Under the pieces are notes generated by a model that was not told the DNA's origin, made no database searches, and saw only the letters and a program-made list of their open reading frames with translations. From the NCBI GenBank assembly GCA_001247695.2, contig LGRX02035214.1:16305-80304 (forward strand): a stretch of DNA of 64,000 bases, in the 5' to 3' direction. Positions 4,232 to 38,300 of this stretch are shown in pieces (within the stretch, counting starts at the first letter, position 1; every line of letters begins with the position of its first letter). Source of the stretch: Cymbomonas tetramitiformis (Eukaryota; Chlorophyta; Pyramimonadophyceae; Pyramimonadales; Pyramimonadaceae). The translations under genes were made by a program, and so were the position numbers.

Positions 4232-4632
4232 AAGAAGGTTACATTTGACTACGCCCAGTATGGCAGCGTGAAGTTCGGACATGGGTCGCAGAAAGTAGTC
4301 ATCGCGGGTTGCAACCCCGGGTCATCATCTGCAGGAACAGGGCAGGCCATGTGACTGGTAGAGGCGCAGCTTATCAGTACTAAGCAGGCTAGGAAGGATC
4401 TGCGAGCCTTGAAGAATAGCGGCGAAGAAGCGTACCTGATGTACCTAGCTCCAGATGGCACGTTCAAAATGGAGGCCACCGACGACCCCAACTCTCCCTT
4501 AGAGGCATCTACAGCCTTATCAGAGTCATCTTCATCATCATCATCGGAGGCAGAGGGTGACAACGCTAGGCAAAGGGGGGGGAAGTTACCTCTGACGAGG
4601 AAGGCTGCAACAGCGACGGTACAGAAGCAAGC

Positions 4633-6886
4633 GTGGTCACCCTAATCTCCGACGGCAGTTCGTCCGAATCTGAACAAGATGCAACGGACCAGGAGGACTG
4701 GGCACAGGAGCAGGTGTGTGCTCTGCGACCGGTGACGTGCCCCACATCAGCGCAACCCGCCGTGCGAGACTGGGGACCTTACCCCACAAGGGCCAGATGG
4801 GAAGCGTTCCAGATGCTTCCGCGAGAGCGCAGGGAGCAAGCAGCACAGCACCATGCGGAAGAATTGGAACCTGAGTGGGAAGAGGAGGTATACTGTTTGT
4901 GGAAAACAGGGCAGGCACTGCGCCTGCAGCAGGAACAGCGGAGGAGCAGAGGGGCAAACCACAGGAGATCGCGCAGAGTTAGCGAGCCAGTACTGGCAGC
5001 ACCTATAGAAGCTGAGACAGGACAAAGCAAAGATGGGTATAGCTGTTTCAGGAAGGAGGCACCAGCTGCTGCGGCGAGGACACCTGATGATGAGCGGAGC
5101 AGCGGCGCGGACGGCAAGGTCAAGCAGCACGGAGGCGAGACCAAGGAGGCCACGCCGGATGAAGAGGACGCAGAGGTGCCACAATGGATCCTGGACGAAC
5201 TGGTGAAACTGAAGCAGCGGTACCAGGACGTGGTGAAAATGGAACTAACCAAGGGCGTGGTGGATCGAGAGCACAAATCGCCGCTAGTACTGGACCCTGA
5301 GTACAAGGAGGGGGCTCGGCATAAACGATGCTACAAACTATCCATGGAGGAAATGAAGCAGTTGCGTGTACAATGAGACGAGCTTCTGGCAAAAGGGTAC
5401 ATCCGCCCTTCTTCCTCGTCATGGGGCAGTCCGGTGTTGATGGTACCCAAGCCTTCTAACCCGAAGGAACTGATGCTAGTGATTGACTACAGGCAGATCA
5501 ATGAGATTGCCGTGAAAGACCGTTACCCCTTACCGGACGTGCACGCTCTTATTGATGACATGCAAGGAGCAACCATCTTTTCTACCGCTGACGCACTGTA
5601 TGTGGGGGGTTTGGCAAGTCCCTATGGAGGAAGAAGCAGTGGAGAAGACCGCCATGACCACGCCGTTTGGAGCATATGAGTGGTTGGTCATGCCAATGGG
5701 GCTGTCCAACAGTCCTTCGTGTTGGCAGCGGATGATGCAGAAGTACTTGGGCCACTTACCGTTCGTCAGAGTTTTTGTGGATGCCATTATAATCTTCTCG
5801 CGCAACCCCGAGGAGCACCTGGACCACCTGCGGCAGGTTTTGGAGGTATGTCGACAGAATAAGGTCAAGCTGAAGGAGTCCAAGCTGCGATGCTTTAAAC
5901 GCTCAGTACGTTTTCTGGGACATGTCATTATTGACCGCACTGGCTGCCGACCACAGCAGGACAAGATAGCATCCATACGGGACTGGCCGCGACTGGAGAC
6001 GGTGAAGCACGTGCGACAGTTCTTGGGTTTGGCTGGGGTTTATCGACGGTACATACAGGGTTTTGCTGACTTGGCGCACCCCCTGACCAAGCCAACCAAG
6101 AATCTAGTACCATGGGAATGGGGACCGGAGCAGGAACACGCTTTCGCACGCCTCAAGACCGCCCTCACCACTGCACCGACCTTGATCTTGCCCGATCAGG
6201 AAGCAGCTCATCGCGGTACCAGCCCCTTTGTTGTGCAGACCGATGCGAGCGCAGTGGCATTAGCTGGCGTGCTGATGCAGGATATAGGCAAGGGCCTGCA
6301 ACCCATAGCCTTCGAGAGTAAGCAATTCTCTTCAGCCGAGCAGAACTACCACGCGGGTGAGCGAGAGCTGGCCGCGATTCACCACTGCACTACACAGACG
6401 TGGAGACACTACCTGATCTTCACGGAGTTTAGGCTGATGGGGGACCATGCTCCACTGAAGTGGCTGTTTGCACCTGGACGTGAGCTCAGCCGACGACAGG
6501 CCAGGTGGTACGAAGATCTGGTGGAAGTAGGAGTGCATGCAATGGAGCACGTGCCAGGACGCACACTGGTGGTACCGGACGCTGCCTCACGGCGACCGGA
6601 CTATGTGCAGGCGACGGCGCGAGAGGGGCTTAAGGAAGCAGGGTATGTGGACCCAAGCACCGACCAGCCAGTATCTGCAGAGGAGGGCAGAAGAGCAGCG
6701 GGAGCTAAAGGGAAACCAGAGGAAGAGGAGAACGTGGTGGCTGGCCTGAAGAAGGTTGTAGAGGAGGAGGATCCCACTTCACCTTTGGACTTGGAGCTCG
6801 GCTCGTCGGATGAGGAGGAAGATGAGTGCCGGTTCAGGACGGTGTTAATCCAGGGGCACTCAGTGCACTGGCCTAAACCAGTCTGA
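4633..6886 (+). pseudogene. Reverse transcriptase-RNase H of the gypsy element, inactivated
   Basis: After an acidic linker, RT begins near 5280 (a 'YKLSMEEMKQLR' stretch followed by 'KGYIRPSSSSWGSPV' and 'VIDYRQINEIAVKDRYPLP'). RT continues to about 6100 and is followed by RNase H ('VQTDAS', 'ERELAAIHH', 'VPDAASRRPDY'). Three lesions are visible. A TGA interrupts the frame at 5374-5376. A one-base frameshift lies in the G-run near 5597-5605, so the rest is read from the frame containing 5552. The YxDD-type active site reads FVDA at 5774-5785, with GCC in place of an Asp codon. After RNase H come an acidic spacer and a stop at 6884-6886, where integrase should begin. Confidence 0.88.
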
Positions 6887-13904: not shown

Positions 13905-13921
13905 ATACGTGAAGAGATTCG

Positions 13922-15355
13922 TTGAAGCAAACGTTGAAATATAGATGCGTTGAAGATACGGCGGCACGTCAAGAGTCCACAGGAGTGACACCGTTCACTT
14001 TGCTGTTCGCCCAAGAAGCAGTGGTGCCGCCAGATCTGAAGCAAGCGCCCAGTATAGACTTCAGTCCAGAGGTCAAGGATGACAAGGACGCTCGGGTCAA
14101 GGACCTCCTCCTGAGAGCAGAGGTGGTGAAGCGACTGATGGTGCACGCGGGTTGCAGCCTGGAGGTTGCACAACATCGTGACACTCTACATTACGAAGGA
14201 AGAAGGGGTGGTGGCATTGAGCCTAAACCACACCAGTTTAAGGTGGGTGACTTTGTCTACATTAGACAGAAGCCTCGCAGCGGCATGGAAGTCGCGACCA
14301 AGTCCGCCATTCTGAAGCTGGTCAAGATACAGCGAGATGGTGTGGTGGTGCTTGAGGACGCCACCAAGTTGAGAGAGAAGAGCACCGTGCAGAGCATCGC
14401 GCCATGTCACCTACAGGTGAAGGACCAGTATGACTGCAGTGCAGCCGTTCCCAGCAAGCACCTAGCATGTGAAGTGTGCAGGAAGACTGATGGGGAGGCA
14501 GAGATGTTGTTGTGCGACGCATGCAACAGGGGTTACCACTTATGGTGTCTTAACCCAGCACTGGATGGAGTACCAGAGGGCGAGTGGCTATGTCCCAGGT
14601 GCTCAGGCACGGGGATGCAAGCTGCCAACGCTGAGGTGCAGACCCAGGAAGACGAGAGCTCTGGTGTCCTGGAGGACAAACTGGGCATGAAGGAGCAGCA
14701 ATTGAACGAGAAGCTGTCCTCAGAGATGCGCTTGCTGCCAGCAGACGTGGGTCCCCGTCGTGTGGTGAAGGGAGACAAGTTTCAGCCATGGCATGCCATC
14801 TCATCGAGGGAGATGCTATTGGAAGAAAAGGATGTGTTCTTTGGCTTGCCAGATCAGATTGATTGGGACAGGCAGGACAAGCTCTCGAAGGCCGTGCAGA
14901 CCTTCATGCCAGGGCATTGGAATGAGGGGCATCGCACGGTGCTGAGCAAGAAATATCGCAAACAGAAGGCAATGGCAAGGCAGCTGAGGGAGGCACCTCT
15001 TGTGCCTGCTTTGGCTGAAGAAGAAGTTGAAAAACGAGGAGGGGTGAGACACATGACCAAAGCCCAGGTGCGAGAAGCTAGCGCACTGCAGTGGGGGCTT
15101 GAGCTGGTCATCACCGTGCCCTCTGAGGTGAGGCGTCTGGCGACAGAGGTGGACTGGAAGTCCATCGATGGCGTCTGGGACCCGTGGGCAGGTACTGGGG
15201 TCATCAGTGAGGTGATGGTGGAGCAATGGCCGCAGTTGAGGTTTATGAACAATGACTGGAATTCTCAGTTGGGTTGGCCTGAGGCGCGTGACGCACTTCA
15301 GCCAGGCAATACTGTATATGGAAGGAGAAATATGGTGTCTGTGACGCGATGGTGA
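13922..15355 (+). pseudogene. Integrase C-terminus, PHD finger and start of a methyltransferase-like domain
   Basis: Residues about 20-165 are the end of a gypsy integrase: 'GVTPFTLLFAQEAVVPPDL', the end of the rve core, then 'FKVGDFVYIRQ' and 'GVVVLEDATKLR', the C-terminal SH3/GPY-type module. Residues about 182-230 form a C4HC3 PHD finger ('CEVC', 'LLCDACNRGYHLWCLNPAL', 'WLCPRC'). Near residue 415 comes 'GVWDPWAGTGVISEVM', a class I methyltransferase motif I (DPWxGTG). The frame ends at 15353-15355, while the methyltransferase continues in another frame. The integrase zinc finger and catalytic core are missing upstream. PHD fingers read histone tails; here one would be joined to integrase (inference: targeting of insertion). 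Confidence 0.75.
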
Positions 15356-16664: not shown

Positions 16665-17281
16665 AGAGCGCGAGGTAGATAGAGCGCATCATCCGCACAC
16701 GCTTCAGGAAGCTAGGCGGGAAGACCGGCGGGTCAGTGCAGGAGTGGTTGACCAAGTGGAAAGGATTGCCACACATTCACAGTCAGTGGCGAACCAGAGA
16801 GGACTTGGAGGGCAAGGGAGGCAGGCTGGAGCCTTTGAGAGCCTTCGAGGCCGACGAGGAGAAGCAGAGGAAGGCCCCAGAAAAGAGGCGTAGGGAGACG
16901 CACGGCCAGCAGCAGGAGCAGCGGGCTCAGCTCATGGCAATGAGAGCCCCCACCCCGAAGGTTTACAGTAGGGGTGCCAGTCAGGTCTACCAGCCGCATC
17001 TCACGACGGTGCAACATCCTGTGAGGATCCTGGTCCTCTTCCGTGGGACTGGGTCTATAGAACAGCAGTTCCAACGGCAATTCGACGGCTGCGAAGTGGT
17101 GACAGTGGATATTCTTCCTAAGTGGCAAGCAACATGCACCGAGGACATTCTTCACTGGAACTACAGGCTGTACCCCCGGCACCATTTCGACGTGATCTGG
17201 GCGAGCCCACCATGCGTAAGGAGTACAGCAAGGCCAAGACTAGGGGAGTACCGGACTTGGAACAGACTGATCGGCGAGTGA
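16665..17281 (+). pseudogene. Chromodomain fused to the first half of a C5 DNA methyltransferase-like domain
   Basis: In the frame containing 16736, 'IERIIRTR' and then 'EWLTKWKGLPHIHSQW' followed by 'REDL' form a chromodomain with its aromatic/acidic pattern (about 16665-16810). After a Lys/Gln-rich linker, 'ILVLFRGTGSIEQQF' (motif I), 'VVTVDI' (motif II) and 'FDVIWASPPC' follow; the catalytic Pro-Cys lies at 17210-17215. Motif spacing matches the cytosine-5 methyltransferase-like proteins found in phages and large DNA viruses. The frame is lost at once after the catalytic Cys. Chromodomains in chromoviruses direct integration to marked chromatin. Confidence 0.75.
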
Positions 17282-32800: not shown

Positions 32801-35800
32801 GTGTGGAGCTTGAATATGATGATACACCGTTGGGAGGCAGGCTGATGTGACACCCGTATATGATCACAGGGCGGCTCTGTTGGCATGCCTCGTGCAACGT
32901 GGTGTGAGCTGGGCGGCTTTGCGGGAAACTTGTGGTGGAGGGCGGTTGAGGAGGGGTGCTTGCATGGGAGTTGTATGCTGCAGCGCTGCGTTCTGTAAGG
33001 AGACCGACATGGTCAAGGATAAGTGCTGGCATCCGGAGACCTTGACCGCGGCGGATCGCAAAGAAAGGGGAGTTCCGTTTCGCGACCCGGCGTCCTTGAT
33101 GGACCCTTGCAAGCCCCATCTCGAGGTAGGCGCACACGGGGGGGCGCCCACCGCACTGCGCTCCGAAAACTTGAGGGGTCATCCGCCATAGCAGTTGCAT
33201 CCCGTCAAGTCCGCACTCCCCGGCTGCAGGTAGAGTTGAGGCGGGATTGTTGGGTAAGCGGGCATCCTGAGACGTGGGGATCGCATCCATGGAGAGGGCA
33301 AGCTCGCTCCGGTAGTGACACTGCCCGTCAGCTTCAAACTCGGTGCATTCACTGGGCGCTCATTTTGCCCGAGAAGTGTCAAATCTTTTAACCTGCAGAA
33401 AAGGCATTGTGACAAGTGATCCATGAGGGCCGGGCACGGTGGCCTCCGACCGGCGAGTGGGGGCTTAGGTTCTTGCGAGCGCTGAGTGGAGGCCGGCAGA
33501 GGCGCTCAAAGAGAGCCGACATCCCGTTTCGAGAAGGGGATGGTTGATAAGTCAATTTAAAGAAATGAAGGCAGGCGAGGAGCGGGTAGGTGCAAGAGGA
33601 TAATTCACGTTTTGGTAGGCTTGACGCGGACATTCAGGTGTAGCAAGGAGGTTTTTTGTTGGCCAGGTGCAAGGGTGGATGCGCGGGGTGCTCCGTAACG
33701 CCCTGGTGCTGCACAAGAAGTCGGCGCGCGTCCTCATCCTGCCGCAGCTCAAATGCTATTGTGAACGGTGGCGCACTCCTCCATGCCAACCCATGTTGTC
33801 GCCATGATCTAGATGCACGCGCAAAACTCACCCCCATTCCTCTCCTAGCTCTAGCCCTTTCCACACAGGATAGTGACTAGAGCGTACACACACCTACGCT
33901 ACCGCCAGGGTGCAGGCTGCTCGAGCTGTGTTCTTAGGGCGCCCCCACTGTGGCGCGGTCGTGTTCCCATCGCTTGATGGCTGCCCTCCCGAGCGTTGTC
34001 AGATCAGATCAGTCAATTTCAATCCAGATTGGGCGTAGGCAAGTGAATTTTTTGTGTAGTTTGGGCGACAAACTGAAACAGGATCCAGATTGGGCGTAGA
34101 CTTACAAGGCTAGACGATCTCAAAATCTCCACTAGCCCAACGTGACTAGTCGGGGGAATCAGGGAAACGAACGGTCGATCTGTTGAATGCATGGTGCTGG
34201 TGTCGCCACTCGCGACGTCGCGCCGTGACCTCGTGAGTCGGGTTGACGAGTGACGATTCGGTTACGATGACACTATTCAGACTCGCGACACGTTCGACGT
34301 TGACGATCCGTTTTCGTTTTATACAATGAGACGTCGTGAACTCGTGATTCGTTTCCCGATTCCTTTCTTCGCTTCGCTCATCTGAGTGACAAATGACGTG
34401 GCATATCGTGATGTGACACACGTGCGCCGATCACAACGGCGGTTTGATTAACTTGATCGACTCAGTAAGTAAGTAAGCAAGTAAGTAATTTGCCCAGGTT
34501 TTTCTTCATAAAGAGCTAGCGTTGTATGTATGTATGTATGTATGTATGTATGTATGTATGCTTATCCTTGGACCGACTCCTTTGGCACACCGTACAGTCT
34601 GCGCCAAAGGCACACAGTTCTTCTCCGAGGCGCTCATGGAACAGGCTATGCACTGAAATGCTGCCAAGGTTGTTACAGTGCTGTAAAATAAATTTGAAGC
34701 TGTGCAAATATGCTTCCACGTTTGGCCCCTCTGGCATACTGCAAGAAATTCATTACAAAAATATCAAAGTGAATAAAGTGTACGTTTCTCTATGCAAGCA
34801 AGATTTCTAGTCCACACGTTCAGGGGAAGCCTTAGGTTTCTTGGGAGGCGGGATAAGAGGAGGTACAGGCTGCGGTGTCAGTAACTCATCGTACAACCAA
34901 TCGGGGAGCTCGTCGTTCCCTTGCTCAGGCTCACTGTCACTGATGACGACATACTCGATCACATCAGGTCCACACTCAGGCTTCGGCGACTTGATCTTGG
35001 GCGACTCGATCTTGGGCGACTCGATCTTGGCCACAAGAGGTTTGACAGGTGGAGGTGGAGAAGTTACAACCGCGGACTCGACGTCAGACTCCACCTCTGA
35101 CTCCTCGACGTCAGACTCCTTGGACTTGACAGAAGCCCCTCCTCCAGTTGGCATGCGGGCCCTCTTGACTGTTCTCGCCATCTTGAAAGTAATAACAATT
35201 ATACAAAATAAACAAAAAGATGAAAACAATCTAAGGTGTGGGTCGGGGTGGGTATATGTACCCTTGGGTGCTCTAAAGGAGGGCACGCTTGAAAGTGGCA
35301 CGAGGGGGAATTTGTGTGGGAGCCTCTCTACAGGCCGTGTACCACAGTGCAATATGTGTGTGGGGGTTCGGGGTGGGTATATGTACCCTTGGGTGACCTA
35401 GAGGAGGGCACGCTTGAAAGTGGCACAAGGTGCAATTTCTTCCCAATAATAATATGTGATGCCTAAGCTAAGGTTCTCCACTAGCTAGGCCTTTAGTTAG
35501 AACTGACTAAAGGCCTAGCTAGTGGAGAACCTTAGCTTAGGCATCACATATTATTATTTGGAAGAAATTTCCCCTCGTGCCACTTTCAAGCGTGCCCTCC
35601 TTTAGAGCACCCAAGGGTACATATACCCACCCCGACCCACACCTTAGATTGTTTTCATCTTTTTGTTTATTTTGTATAATTGTTATTACTTTCAAGATGG
35701 CGAGAACAGTCAAGAGGGCCCGCATGCCAACTGGAGGAGGGGCTTCTGTCAAGTCCAAGGAGTCTGACATCGAGGAGTCTGAGTTGGAGTCTGACGTCGA

Positions 35801-38300
35801 GTCCGCGGTTCAGTCAGAGGTGGAGTCTGAGGTGGAGACCGTGGTTGTAACTTCTCCACCTCCACCTGTCAAACCTCTTGTGGCCAAGATCGAGTCGCCC
35901 AAGATCGAGTCGCCCAAGATCGAGTCGCCCAAGATCAAGTCGCCGAAGCCTGAGTGTGGACCTGATGTGATCGAGTATGTCGTCATCAGTGACAGTGAGC
36001 CTGAGCAAGGGAACGACGAGCTCCCCGATTGGTTGTACGATGAGTTACTGACACCGCAACCTGTACCTCCCCTTATCCCGCCTCCCAAGAAACCTAAGGC
36101 TTCCCCTGAACGTGTGGACTAGAAATCTTGCTTGCATAGAGAAACGTACACTTTATTCACTTTGATATTTTTGTAATGATTTTCTTGCAGTATGCCAGAG
36201 GGGCCAAACGTGGAAGCATATTTGCACAGCTTCAAATTTATTTTACAGCACTGTAACAACCTTGGCAGCATTTCAGTGCATAGCCTGTTCCATGAGCGCC
36301 TCGGAGAAGAACTGTGTGCCTTTGGCGCAAAAGACGCTGCACTATGTACCCACGCACGACCAGAAGGCGAATCCCAGATTTCGGAACTTAGGAGCCCATT
36401 GAAAGAGGTTGATACAAGCATCTTCGGCTGAGATCTGAGCTACAACTGCTCACTCACAACCTTTTTGTAGTATTAGAAGTGGTCGAATCTTTAGCATTCA
36501 TATGTTGACCGACAATGAGTGCGCTTGCGCCATGGACCCAGAGCAGCAAGTTTAAGGAAAGCTAATCCGTGGCGGCGAAAAAAAGTCCGCTTCCCAGCAG
36601 GTATCTAGCGCTAGGACAGAGCGTCGGAGGAGGCGGTGTGCACCTGAGCTGCCAGTGGTGAAGGAACGAAGATGTTATCCAGTCATGTGCCCTTGCGGTC
36701 CTCATGCCATACCACGTGCAGGCTCGATGCCCTTCCCACGTCATTCTAAGTCGGCTGGGGGGCACGGGGAGAGCAGCCATTGGTTCATATTGGAGGATGG
36801 GCGGATCCCGGCGGGCCCTATTCAGATGCCCATGCCGTACGAGTGCCCAATGGACCACATCTTTGAGCCGGCCGATTGGTTTAGAAACGGAATTGAATTC
36901 CGCGAGCCTGGTACGTCCCCGCGGCATCGGCGCTCTCCCTGCATGCCCGGTCCACCACGCCCATCCCTCACCACGTCGTGCTATGTTGACCAAGAATTAC
37001 ACGTGGAGAAAACATGAGGTTGCGTGAGGTTGGAGGGTGCGACGGACGCGCGGGCGGGCGGCTGTTGGGGGCGGCATTGGGTGCACAGGGTTCTTGAGAG
37101 ACCACCGGGTGCCAGAGGCGATTACGGGTTCTAAAGTCCGGGTGTTGCTGGACCTACCCCACGGAAGCAGTCCGGTGTTCTCCACGGACCTCTTGCACCT
37201 TGCCAACCAGTCCACCTTCGATCAGGTTCTAGATGCCTTGGATGCGCATCGCATGCAGCACGGCCACCGTCGGGTTGTAGAGGTGGTTGCGCCTCTCTCC
37301 ACCCGTCCATCTCTCTCACTCTCTTTGCATCTGCATTTGAAGTTTTTTAGGGTGTGCCGATGTTTGCACAATGATACGGGGGGGCGCTGGTGCTTTCACG
37401 ATGCTACGGTGGTATTCTGATTGTCGTAAATTGATATGACGATGTGTTGATATTTGCACAAAGGTACGGTTGTGTGCCGATGTTTGTTGGATGATGTGTA
37501 GATGTTTGCACAAGGATACGGTGGTGTGCTGACATTTGCATATTGATATGGTGGTGTGCTGATATTTGCCCATTGATACGGTGGTGCTCCGATGTTTGCA
37601 CACGAGTGTTGGCTTGATTTCATTAAGTGCTTGCATGCAACATTGTATCCCTTCGCGCAAATTGCTTTATAATTTCCCTTTGTGGATATTTGCAACTCTG
37701 TTTATCTCCTTCGAAAAACCGAAATTGACAGCTGCGAGATGTCGGATATCGGAGCAGTTGCTCGGCATTGCCACGTGTCATCATGCAACATTTATAGTAA
37801 GATATCAACATCTCACTTTGGTAAACATATCTAGCGGCTGGGCTTACAAGATGATCTTCTAAGCCATGTCAAACCACGAAGACGTTATAATAATGCATTG
37901 ACGACGGGATTTTTTGCACCGATCGAGGGGCGCATCGCAGAGCCTCCATCCCAGTTGACGGTCGCCTGGGAAGCAGAGTGACAGCTCCCTGCTTGCCTGA
38001 TAGTGAGTAGTATGCCACGAACCGTCCGCAGCAAGCCTGTATGCGTGTGTGTTATGGAGGGGAGAGGGGAGTGGTGACGACAGATTAAGGCGGTTCATCT
38101 GCGGGACCACGTCTCCACATGCCTTTCTACAAGCCAGTCCGATGTGGACCAGTTCAACATGTTGGCCGCCAAGATTCTTGGTGGATGGCTGGTGGAGTTT
38201 TGTAGCCGGGACCGCAACTATCTGATTGCAGAGGTGGCCCCACCTCTGGAGGCACAAGGCAAGGATGTAAAAAATGGTTGGAACTGCTCGTATCCAGGTA
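23832..38300 (+). CDS. GT77-family glycosyltransferase (extensin/hydroxyproline arabinosyltransferase-like), multi-exon
   Basis: Exons by splice motif and phase: 23832-24184, 24729-24923, 26643-26706, 26916-26950, 27227-27461, 27639-27811, 30543-30679, 32454-32586, 32984-33125, 36655-36910 and 37089-37282. All phases match at the joins. A last exon near 38138-38300 is uncertain. The N-terminus has a hydrophobic segment (about residues 17-36), as in type II Golgi enzymes. The nucleotide-diphospho-sugar transferase core follows: 'IMLTFGSSAVSDFILNW', 'AAMDEELLELCRSKGIPSF', 'AFKKMGAVKARL', then the DxD motif in 'DVFISDADVVW' (metal/sugar-nucleotide binding), 'EFNTGMLFLRAS', 'HDQAEFN', 'FLNGHMFF', 'AVHLTYQF', 'GKRQRLREMGMWL' and 'YECPMDHIFEPADWF'. 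The family (XEG113/RRA) adds arabinose to hydroxyproline-rich glycoproteins in the Golgi; the exact sugar here is unknown. A small extra exon at 32651-32697 also fits in phase. Confidence 0.88.
25262..26110 (+). repeat. Minisatellite, 60-bp unit, about 14 copies, in GT77 intron 2
   Basis: The unit contains GTTGATGTTTAGCATCTTGC, AGATCRGTGGCATGTGAA and GTGCCCTAAGGTGCTTTGA. The 60-bp period is a multiple of three and the complementary strand happens to lack stops, giving long repetitive frames of 245 and 92 codons on the minus strand that I do not treat as genes. One copy is shortened near 25815-25860. Confidence 0.97.
27930..28575 (+). repeat. Imperfect minisatellite in GT77 intron (27812-30542)
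   Basis: About 11 copies of a 40-75-bp unit built from GAGATTGAGCTTCCAGCACT, TCTGTCAGTCGCGTGGTTCC and an optional GAGCTGGCAGCTGAAG block. Unit length varies through loss or gain of that block. Confidence 0.92.
29226..29575 (+). repeat. Minisatellite, about 41-47-bp unit, about 8 copies, in GT77 intron
   Basis: The unit contains CACGGATGCGATGTGGTCC and GTCGATGGATGCAGGGTAAT. It lies in the same intron as the arrays at 27930 and 29799. Confidence 0.92.
29799..30283 (+). repeat. Minisatellite, 30-bp unit, 16 copies, in GT77 intron
   Basis: Unit CCGGTCTCCGAGGATGCCGC plus GYCGCAGTCG. Sixteen near-identical copies, one 24 bp long. Because the unit is a multiple of three and GC-rich, several frames on both strands are open (for example a repeated SPVSEDAA). 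The array lies between two phase-compatible exons of the GT77 gene, so I treat it as intronic. Confidence 0.97.
31280..32395 (+). repeat. Minisatellite, about 70-80-bp unit, about 15 copies, in GT77 intron (30680-32453)
   Basis: The unit contains CTTGCTTCAATGCGATTCGC, TACTGCATATAAAGGAGAAG and GCGAGTCTCTTTGGCCTCGC with variable G-runs. Many copies carry CATATAAAGG, a TATA-like word. Confidence 0.95.
33126..34599. other. Intron sequence of GT77 left of the inverted repeat, no gene
   Basis: No supported coding sequence. A pair of direct repeats (ATCCAGATTGGGCGTAG at about 34023 and 34083) and a (TATG)n microsatellite at 34524-34561 are the only features I see. Confidence 0.55.
34524..34561 (+). 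repeat. (TATG)n microsatellite
   Basis: About nine uninterrupted copies of a TATG tetranucleotide, 40 bp outside the left arm of the inverted repeat. Confidence 0.98.
34600..35501. repeat. Left arm of the inverted repeat
   Basis: Outer limit TGCGCCAAAGG pairs with CCTTTGGCGCA at the right end. It includes an internal duplication: a block from GGGGTGGGTATATGTACCCT through GGGCACGCTTGAAAGTGGCAC occurs at about 35244 and again at about 35369. Confidence 0.92.
34807..35181 (-). CDS. Small acidic protein with a histone H3-tail-like N-terminus (left copy)
   Basis: 124 residues from the ATG at 35181. After Met the protein begins ARTVKRARMPTGGGA. Aligned without gaps to the histone H3 tail, 9 of 15 positions agree (A1 R2 T3 A7 R8 T11 G12 G13 A15), while Lys4, Lys9 and Lys14 are Val, Met and Gly and Ser10 is Pro. 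The middle is Ser/Glu/Asp-rich and carries 'KIESP' repeats. Near the C-terminus 'VIEYVVISDSEPEQ' fits a SUMO-interacting motif (hydrophobic core plus acidic Ser/Glu). The tail is Pro-rich. There is no histone fold. The start is set by the ATG shared with the other arm and by the upstream TATA-like segment, although the frame is open further upstream. Inference: a chromatin-acting H3-tail mimic. Chance similarity is the alternative. Confidence 0.6.
   Translation of the reverse strand: MARTVKRARMPTGGGASVKSKESDVEESEVESDVESAVVTSPPPPVKPLVAKIESPKIESPKIKSPKPECGPDVIEYVVISDSEPEQGNDELPDWLYDELLTPQPVPPLIPPPKKPKASPERVD
35615..35628 (+). promoter_or_regulatory. TATA-like promoter element of the right H3-like CDS
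   Basis: GGGTACATATACCC, about 70 bp upstream of the ATG at 35697, is followed by an AT-rich leader. The mirror copy lies at about 35250 and, through a local duplication, again at about 35375 for the left gene. Confidence 0.4.
35697..36122 (+). CDS. Small acidic protein with a histone H3-tail-like N-terminus (right copy)
   Basis: 141 residues, with the same first 15 residues as the left copy. It differs by a few conservative changes (Val/Ile, Val/Leu) and by 16 extra residues in two in-frame insertions: a QSEVESEVET-like segment and one more KIESP unit. Both length differences are multiples of three, which suggests the frame has been under selection. It contains the same SUMO-interacting-type motif VVISDSE and Pro-rich tail. 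A TATA-like word lies about 70 bp before the ATG, and the leader is AT-rich. The protein would be strongly acidic apart from its basic N-terminus. It reads in the same direction as the GT77 host transcript. Confidence 0.62.
   Translation: MARTVKRARMPTGGGASVKSKESDIEESELESDVESAVQSEVESEVETVVVTSPPPPVKPLVAKIESPKIESPKIESPKIKSPKPECGPDVIEYVVISDSEPEQGNDELPDWLYDELLTPQPVPPLIPPPKKPKASPERVD
36182..36329 (+). other. Exon-like segment at the outer end of each arm (mirror copy 34600-34745)
   Basis: An intron-end-like TTTTCTTGCAG precedes an open stretch starting MPEGPNVEAYLHSFKFIL that runs 46 residues to the edge of the inverted repeat in both arms, then continues into different flanking sequence. MPEGP recalls the start of Fpg/Nei DNA glycosylases, but nothing after it does. 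It may be a captured exon or the second exon of the H3-like gene. Function unknown. Confidence 0.35.
37360..37610 (+). repeat. Imperfect tandem repeat, about 38-bp unit, about 6 copies
   Basis: Unit built from GATGTTTGCACAATGATACG and GTGGTGTGCTGAT, diverged between copies. It lies 80 bp downstream of the last phase-confirmed GT77 exon. Confidence 0.8.

Follow-up and report, generated by a model that had tools for sequence, protein, structure and literature searches.

The window analysed here, a stretch of 64,000 nucleotides that looks eukaryotic, holds two copies of a small gene that are oriented divergently, i.e. transcribed away from each other. The right copy is an open reading frame (ORF) at 35697-36122 on the forward strand, encoding 141 amino acids, and the left copy is an ORF at 35181-34807 on the reverse strand, encoding 124 amino acids. 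Both proteins share the N-terminus MARTVKRARMPTGGGA, and their first 23 residues (MARTVKRARMPTGGGASVKSKES) are identical. The resemblance of this start to the tail of histone H3, pointed out in a preliminary description of the locus, was confirmed at these coordinates: in register directly after the Met, A1, R2, T3, A7, R8, T11, G12, G13 and A15 of H3 1-15 are kept, giving 9 matches out of 15. The description had rightly named Lys4, Lys9, Ser10 and Lys14 as changed, though not exactly these are, as the full set of changes reads K4V, Q5K, T6R, K9M, S10P and K14G. The ATG of each copy is the first in its own open frame and, by inspection of the sequence, no other ATG intervenes between it and a TATA-like site about 70 nt upstream. 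A TGTAA, which we take to be a polyadenylation-type signal of green algae, is likewise seen about 50 nt past the stop codon of each copy.

35700..35744, forward strand: H3-like segment of the right copy, ARTVKRARMPTGGGA, 9 of 15 identical to H3 1-15; numbered 1-15 on the assumption that the initiator Met is cleaved off
35134..35178, reverse strand: H3-like segment of the left copy, identical to the right one, 9 of 15 identical to H3 1-15
35620..35628, forward strand: TATA-like box catatacc, about 70 nt 5' of the right ATG (inspection only)
36172..36176, forward strand: TGTAA about 50 nt past the right stop codon (inspection)
34753..34757, reverse strand: TGTAA about 50 nt past the left stop codon (inspection)

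Strength of the resemblance to H3

The start of the two proteins stands apart within the window. Among the 240 ATG-initiated ORFs of at least 60 amino acids, both copies included, the runner-up reaches 5 of 15 matches to H3, while the two copies score 9. When the register was scanned over eight offsets, only the start at residue 2 gave a good fit, the other seven yielding 0-4 matches, and controls with H4, H2A, H2B and a reversed H3 tail gave at most 5. With the composition of the ORF starts in the window, the probability of at least 9 matches out of 15 is 7.5e-8 per start and about 2e-5 over the 240 starts, and 24 of 1,000,000 shuffles of the protein's own first 20 residues reach at least 9 of 15; these figures take H3 as a single preset target, and their true significance is much weaker because H3 was singled out only once the sequence had been read, and from an unknown number of windows. 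It is thus possible that the likeness is a coincidence.

A relative closer to H3

Three word-based searches of about 5.8 billion proteins returned a single relative, the EukProt protein P0001 (E 8.1e-14). These searches require shared 5-residue words and similar length and can therefore miss relatives; per search, 23 screened candidates gave 1 match, 3346 gave 2 (P0001 and P0002), and 1281 gave only P0001 itself. P0002 (E 5.9) was rejected as a relative, as it shares only a Ser/Glu/Val-rich stretch and does not have the H3-like start.

P0001 begins with MARTIKRARMSTGGGA (longer stretch, MARTIKRARMSTGGGASIKSKES) and matches H3 1-15 at 10 of 15 positions, i.e. all nine positions at which the window copies match and, in addition, Ser10; it has Ile at position 4 and Met at position 9. 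None of 1,000,000 shuffles of its N-terminus reached 10 of 15. The replacements at K4 and K9 are thus aliphatic in all three proteins. The full H3 N-terminus ARTKQTARKSTGGKA is absent from each of them, with K4, K9 and K14 all replaced. The ARMSTGG of P0001 equals residues 7-13 of the H3K9M peptide, where the window copies read ARMPTGG, and its R8-M9-S10-T11-G12 leaves the recognition sequence of the enzyme intact apart from K9M. The preliminary description had looked to homologues, and to whether they carry the H3-like start at residue 2, as a decisive point for its reading: the one relative found does carry it, is closer to H3 than the window copies, and has Ser10 as in H3.

A search of the PDB with the start of P0001 returned 7 distinct sequences at E values up to 10, all of them histone H3 (E 0.39-4.6) and none individually significant; the same search with the start of the window proteins returned nothing at E values up to 10. 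The right copy and P0001 are identical at 20 of 23 N-terminal residues and at 28 of 42 residues in the rest of the BLAST-aligned part (Fisher p 0.09), so that any extra constraint on the N-terminus would be slight. Towards its C-terminus P0001 bears no relation to the window proteins, and a tblastn search of the window with that part gave no convincing match. P0001 may be a paralogue encoded in the same genome or in a closely related one.

An origin in phages, viruses or prokaryotes was considered and rejected, as no relative was found in phages (DNA search), viral contigs or genome contigs. Separate scans of the viral contigs gave 13, 14 and 21 pattern stretches and the genome contigs gave 15, none of which was confirmed (by tblastn for the viral contigs), in contig sets that may omit the host or near genomes. 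The DNA pattern of the gene gave 2 matches in the window and 0 in the viral contigs.

Predicted nature of the protein

No Pfam family was found for the right copy or for P0001 at E values up to 10. The AlphaFold2 model of the protein is disordered (mean pLDDT 59, pTM 0.14) with one short helix, a weak indication of disorder since the underlying alignment has only three rows. The statement of the preliminary description that there is no histone fold agrees with both results. The net charge alternates along the chain, being +5 for residues 1-23, -11 for 24-48, +3 for 49-86, -10 for 87-120 and +2 for 121-141, and the second acidic segment contains VVISDSE, a putative SUMO-interaction-type motif. 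To judge from these sequence features the small H3-like protein is probably nuclear, and its layout would fit a small protein acting as a partner in the nucleus better than an enzyme.

35979..35999, forward strand: VVISDSE, candidate SUMO-interaction-type motif, residues 95-101 (sequence)
36027..36047, forward strand: DWLYDEL, residues 111-117, sole helix of the predicted structure (AlphaFold2 model)

The inverted duplication and its surroundings

The two genes lie in the arms of an inverted duplication whose centre is only 2 nt long (35501-35502).

34600..35500, no strand: left arm of the inverted duplication (repeat analysis, arm alignment)
35503..36329, no strand: right arm of the inverted duplication (repeat analysis, arm alignment)
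35240..35313, reverse strand: promoter-proximal module of the left copy, with mirrored TATA-like box (repeat family D3, inverted repeat I2)
35365..35438, reverse strand: second promoter-proximal module, 91% identical, extra in the left arm (repeat analysis, arm alignment)

When aligned, the arms show 9 substitutions in 776 bases (about 1.2%) plus indels. As they are the arms of a single inverted duplication, the two gene copies count as one occurrence and not as independent ones. The left arm has 125 extra bases with the second promoter-proximal module, which the right arm has once, and the left gene copy is shorter than the right by 36 and 15 bases, both in frame. Besides these indels, the coding sequences show five changes, of which 3 are synonymous and 2 alter an amino acid, and a signal of selection between the copies is not significant (2 of 5 changes affect amino acids; binomial p 0.10). 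The 36- and 15-base indels fall in tandem repeats with units of 12/36 and 15 bases; because repeat units of these lengths keep the frame by themselves, the in-frame indels are weak evidence of selection.

The preliminary description spoke of an element-encoded protein, for which support has so far not been found: the inverted duplication is there, but no mobility gene was recognised in its arms, no target-site duplication was seen at its ends, outside which the flanks diverge abruptly, and no further copy lies elsewhere in the window. A haplotype mis-join behind the inverted repeat is unlikely, given the abrupt divergence of the flanks next to arms with only the substitutions and indels listed above. 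We also observe that read-through RNA from the inverted repeat at 34600-36329, with its 2-nt centre, would fold into a long hairpin and could feed small-RNA silencing.

The outer arm ends, 34737-34600 on the reverse strand and 36192-36329 on the forward strand, contain the start of another open frame, MPEGPNVEAYLHSFKFILQHCNNLGSISVHSLFHERLGEELCAFGA, just 5' of which a ttcttgcag resembles a 3' splice site. By eye this frame (MPEGPNVEAYL...) could be taken for the start of an Fpg/Nei DNA glycosylase, an assignment that we rejected: Pfam gave no support, the best PDB match was an aminopeptidase at E 0.11 with no support for a glycosylase, and 40 candidate stretches in viral contigs yielded 0 confirmed.

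Elsewhere, a retroelement encoding reverse transcriptase and RNase H domains lies in the left part of the window, as does a retroelement region at 13913-15352 and 16679-17278 with a PHD finger (E 7.7e-13) and, at E 2.8e-06, a chromodomain. What follows the chromodomain (RGTGS...DVIWASPPC) resembles a cytosine methyltransferase on inspection, but Pfam reported none. The retroelement ORF at 4570-5376 contains VVTLISDGSSSESE, followed at a distance by VPQWILDEL, an arrangement with a superficial likeness to VVISDSEPE...LPDWLYDEL in the small protein. An Abhydrolase_2 gene is found at 20.9-21.7 kb, and an open frame at 36685-36930, HWFILEDGRIPAGPIQMPMPYECPMDHIFEPADWFRNGIEFREPG, adjoins a GT and looks like a host exon, with no Pfam match. 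No tRNA was found in the window, and no Rfam family reached its gathering threshold there.

A possible H3-tail mimic

Whether the small protein is a functional mimic of the H3 tail, whatever its target, is in our estimate close to an even matter, leaning slightly to the negative. The mechanism that we favour among those considered, in which its start is a pseudo-substrate trap for an H3K9 methyltransferase, is possible but doubtful. These estimates reflect that P0001 departs from the sequence needed by the enzyme in K9M alone, while the Pro10 of the window copies may weaken them. In the proposed mechanism, the initiator Met would be removed before Ala, exposing A1-R2-T3 as in H3. Val or Ile at position 4 and Met at position 9 would stand in for the methylatable lysines of H3, and because of these aliphatic residues the mimic could be bound as a substrate yet not be modified. 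Met9, flanked by A7-R8 and T11-G12-G13, would enter the lysine channel of an H3K9 SET methyltransferase, which would be held as a pseudo-substrate complex, like H3K9M on Clr4/G9a and EZHIP on PRC2. The result would be less H3K9 methylation on the chromatin that bears the gene. The analysis establishes the sequence, its register, its recurrence in P0001 and the predicted disorder; that the protein is expressed, enters the nucleus and binds a target there, and what role it plays, we infer.

That Lys-to-Met mimicry of H3 is a workable mechanism, as the preliminary description stated, is borne out by known K-to-M/I pseudo-substrates. At position 27 of H3 and at residue 406 of EZHIP, Met or Ile is reported to inhibit PRC2, and Lys or Arg is not (PMC6513997). 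According to PMC5030085, H3K9M with SAM is bound more tightly than the wild type by the SET domains of Clr4 and G9a, the H3K9M peptide ARTKQTARMSTGGKA was crystallised with G9a, and H3K9M dominantly blocks H3K9 methylation in fission yeast. The same source describes a strong drop in the binding of Clr4 to H3K9M upon phosphorylation of Ser10 or with S10D (PMC5030085). For DIM-5 in vitro, the substrate is reported to need R8-G12 only, K4L and K14R being immaterial, and S10A is reported to lower activity greatly (PMC3248561). The window copies have R8, M9, T11 and G12 but Pro in place of Ser10, and they may be weaker ligands of H3K9 enzymes since changes of Ser10 reduce binding or activity. The earlier idea of a decoy for H3K9 writers thus gains from P0001, a closer H3 mimic with Ser10, and loses from Pro10 in the window copies.

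In its widest form, the proposal holds that an H3 N-terminus with aliphatic replacements of K4 and K9 poisons the H3K9, and possibly the H3K4, methylation machinery, keeps its own DNA unsilenced, and evolved independently of EZHIP; we regard this as unlikely, and the anti-silencing role of the small protein is unproven.

Alternative explanations

The serious rival among the explanations listed is coincidence, to which we assign a substantial chance, though one somewhat short of even. The protein would then be small, disordered and nuclear, and its basic, Gly-rich N-terminus, with a KRAR-type nuclear localisation signal, would resemble the H3 start without mimicry. The N-terminus is indeed rich in residues of the H3 tail, and the shuffle within its own composition is far weaker than the background estimate; moreover, H3 was chosen after the fact, the conservation of the N-terminus is not clearly above that of the rest, and Pro10 is unlike H3. 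Chance does not sit well with the greater closeness of P0001 to H3 at no loss of the nine matching positions, with a register that fits exactly from residue 2 and is lost at each of the other seven offsets, or with the aliphatic character of all the K4 and K9 replacements. A history as a histone-derived fragment, in which the first exon of H3 was captured and its modifiable residues were lost by drift, with no mimic function, would also give a colinear, gap-free match from residue 2, and K9 would need a single base change (AAG to ATG). As K4 and K14 would require two or three base changes and the similarity is over by about residue 18, we hold this last explanation to be the most improbable of those considered.

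Two further readings are nested in that of an H3-tail mimic and differ in the target. With its aliphatic neighbour, the exposed A-R-T could dock on a PHD finger of the UHRF1/VIM type, or on another one that binds H3K4me0, displace H3 and prevent DNA methylation from being maintained, in the manner of mouse DPPA3 with its VRT; PAF15, which counts in favour of this reading, is a small disordered protein. ART occupies residues 2-4 in all three proteins (and would be exposed by removal of the Met), the PHD finger of UHRF1 is reported to bind ARTK of H3 and VRTK of PAF15 (PMC8034647), Leu88 after the VRT of human DPPA3 is described as sitting in a hydrophobic pocket (PMC11187062), and Pro10 should be tolerated. 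Antagonism of a PHD finger would nevertheless leave the conservation of A7, R8, M9 and T11-G13 unexplained, and human DPPA3, with VRT alone, is reported to be a poor inhibitor of UHRF1, in contrast to mouse DPPA3 (PMC11187062); we consider this target improbable. It is less probable still that the H3-like N-terminus with its hydrophobic residue 4 (V4 in the window copies, I4 in P0001) is a tight, H3-like ligand of the active site of LSD1 (KDM1), as H3K4M and SNAG are, and recruits or blocks the demethylase. Four of the five PDB alignments listed for the start of P0001 involve H3 peptides that carry Met as residue 4, and 2v1d, among the alignments to that start, is an LSD1-CoREST complex. SNAG domains are described as imitating the H3 tail and recruiting LSD1 (PMC12612597), whereas position 4 is here a branched Val or Ile and not Met or Phe.

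Comparison with known systems

Among the closest points of comparison for an H3-tail mimic are EZHIP/CATACOMB, a largely disordered protein, and H3K9M. Like the small protein, EZHIP is reported to be a non-histone protein with an H3-like stretch bearing Met at a methylated position, where Met and Ile both inhibit PRC2 (PMC6513997), and to have tandem repeats and a putative nuclear localisation signal (PMC12713659). It differs in that it mimics H3K27M in its C-terminal part, whereas here it is the H3 N-terminus itself with K4 and K9, and in that it is reported from placental mammals. H3K9M is identical to P0001 over residues 7-13 and differs from the window copies there at Pro10; unlike the small protein, which shows no histone fold and has changes also at K4, Q5, T6 and K14, it is described as a true histone (PMC5030085).

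SNAG-domain factors and H3K4M also present an N-terminal H3-tail mimic with a hydrophobic residue 4. SNAG starts with Pro-Arg-Ser-Phe, and SNAG proteins carry zinc fingers; unlike the small protein, they have no ARM.TGG. DPPA3/Stella and PAF15 share with it an H3-like xRT motif, which is N-terminal in PAF15 and followed by Leu in human DPPA3; in the excerpts of the sources, only VRT or VRTK is compared with H3, and not residues 7-13. To go by its title, a paper by Chen et al. 2021 (Biochem J, PMC8166343) describes other proteins that mimic the N-terminus of H3. Partners of EHMT1/2 and HP1 are described as non-histone proteins with linear motifs that mimic H3K9, in which the lysine is kept as a proposed methylation target (PMC10611923), unlike the Met found here. 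Influenza NS1 and SARS-CoV-2 ORF8 are described as viral non-histone proteins with a short H3-like motif, which in ORF8 is ARKS, a target of KAT2A with its lysine kept (PMC10208167), whereas here the lysines are replaced. The VANC proteins of VANDAL transposons provide a precedent for a mobile element that counters epigenetic silencing; they are reported to be sequence-specific anti-silencing proteins, and excerpts of both sources make no mention of histone mimicry (PMC5735166, PMC10398659).

H3 mimics with no histone fold are therefore already known, in the form of EZHIP, the viral motifs and the partners of EHMT1/2 and HP1. Within the part of the literature covered, from which absence cannot be proved, no described protein was found that has an H3 N-terminus bearing replaced K4 and K9, nor was such a mimic found to be encoded by a mobile element. 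If functional, an H3 N-terminus with replaced K4 and K9 would be a new form of the H3 mimicry already known.

Conclusion

The claim of mimicry is cheap to probe, with two 15-residue peptides, ARTVKRARMPTGGGA and ARTIKRARMSTGGGA, against a few purified domains. If it is true, the K-to-M/I poison-substrate trick, otherwise known from cancer mutations and EZHIP, would have evolved a second time, on other lysines and at an authentic H3 N-terminus. The small protein would then serve directly as a genetic tool for counteracting H3K9 methylation, and proteomes would be worth searching for other N-terminal histone decoys.
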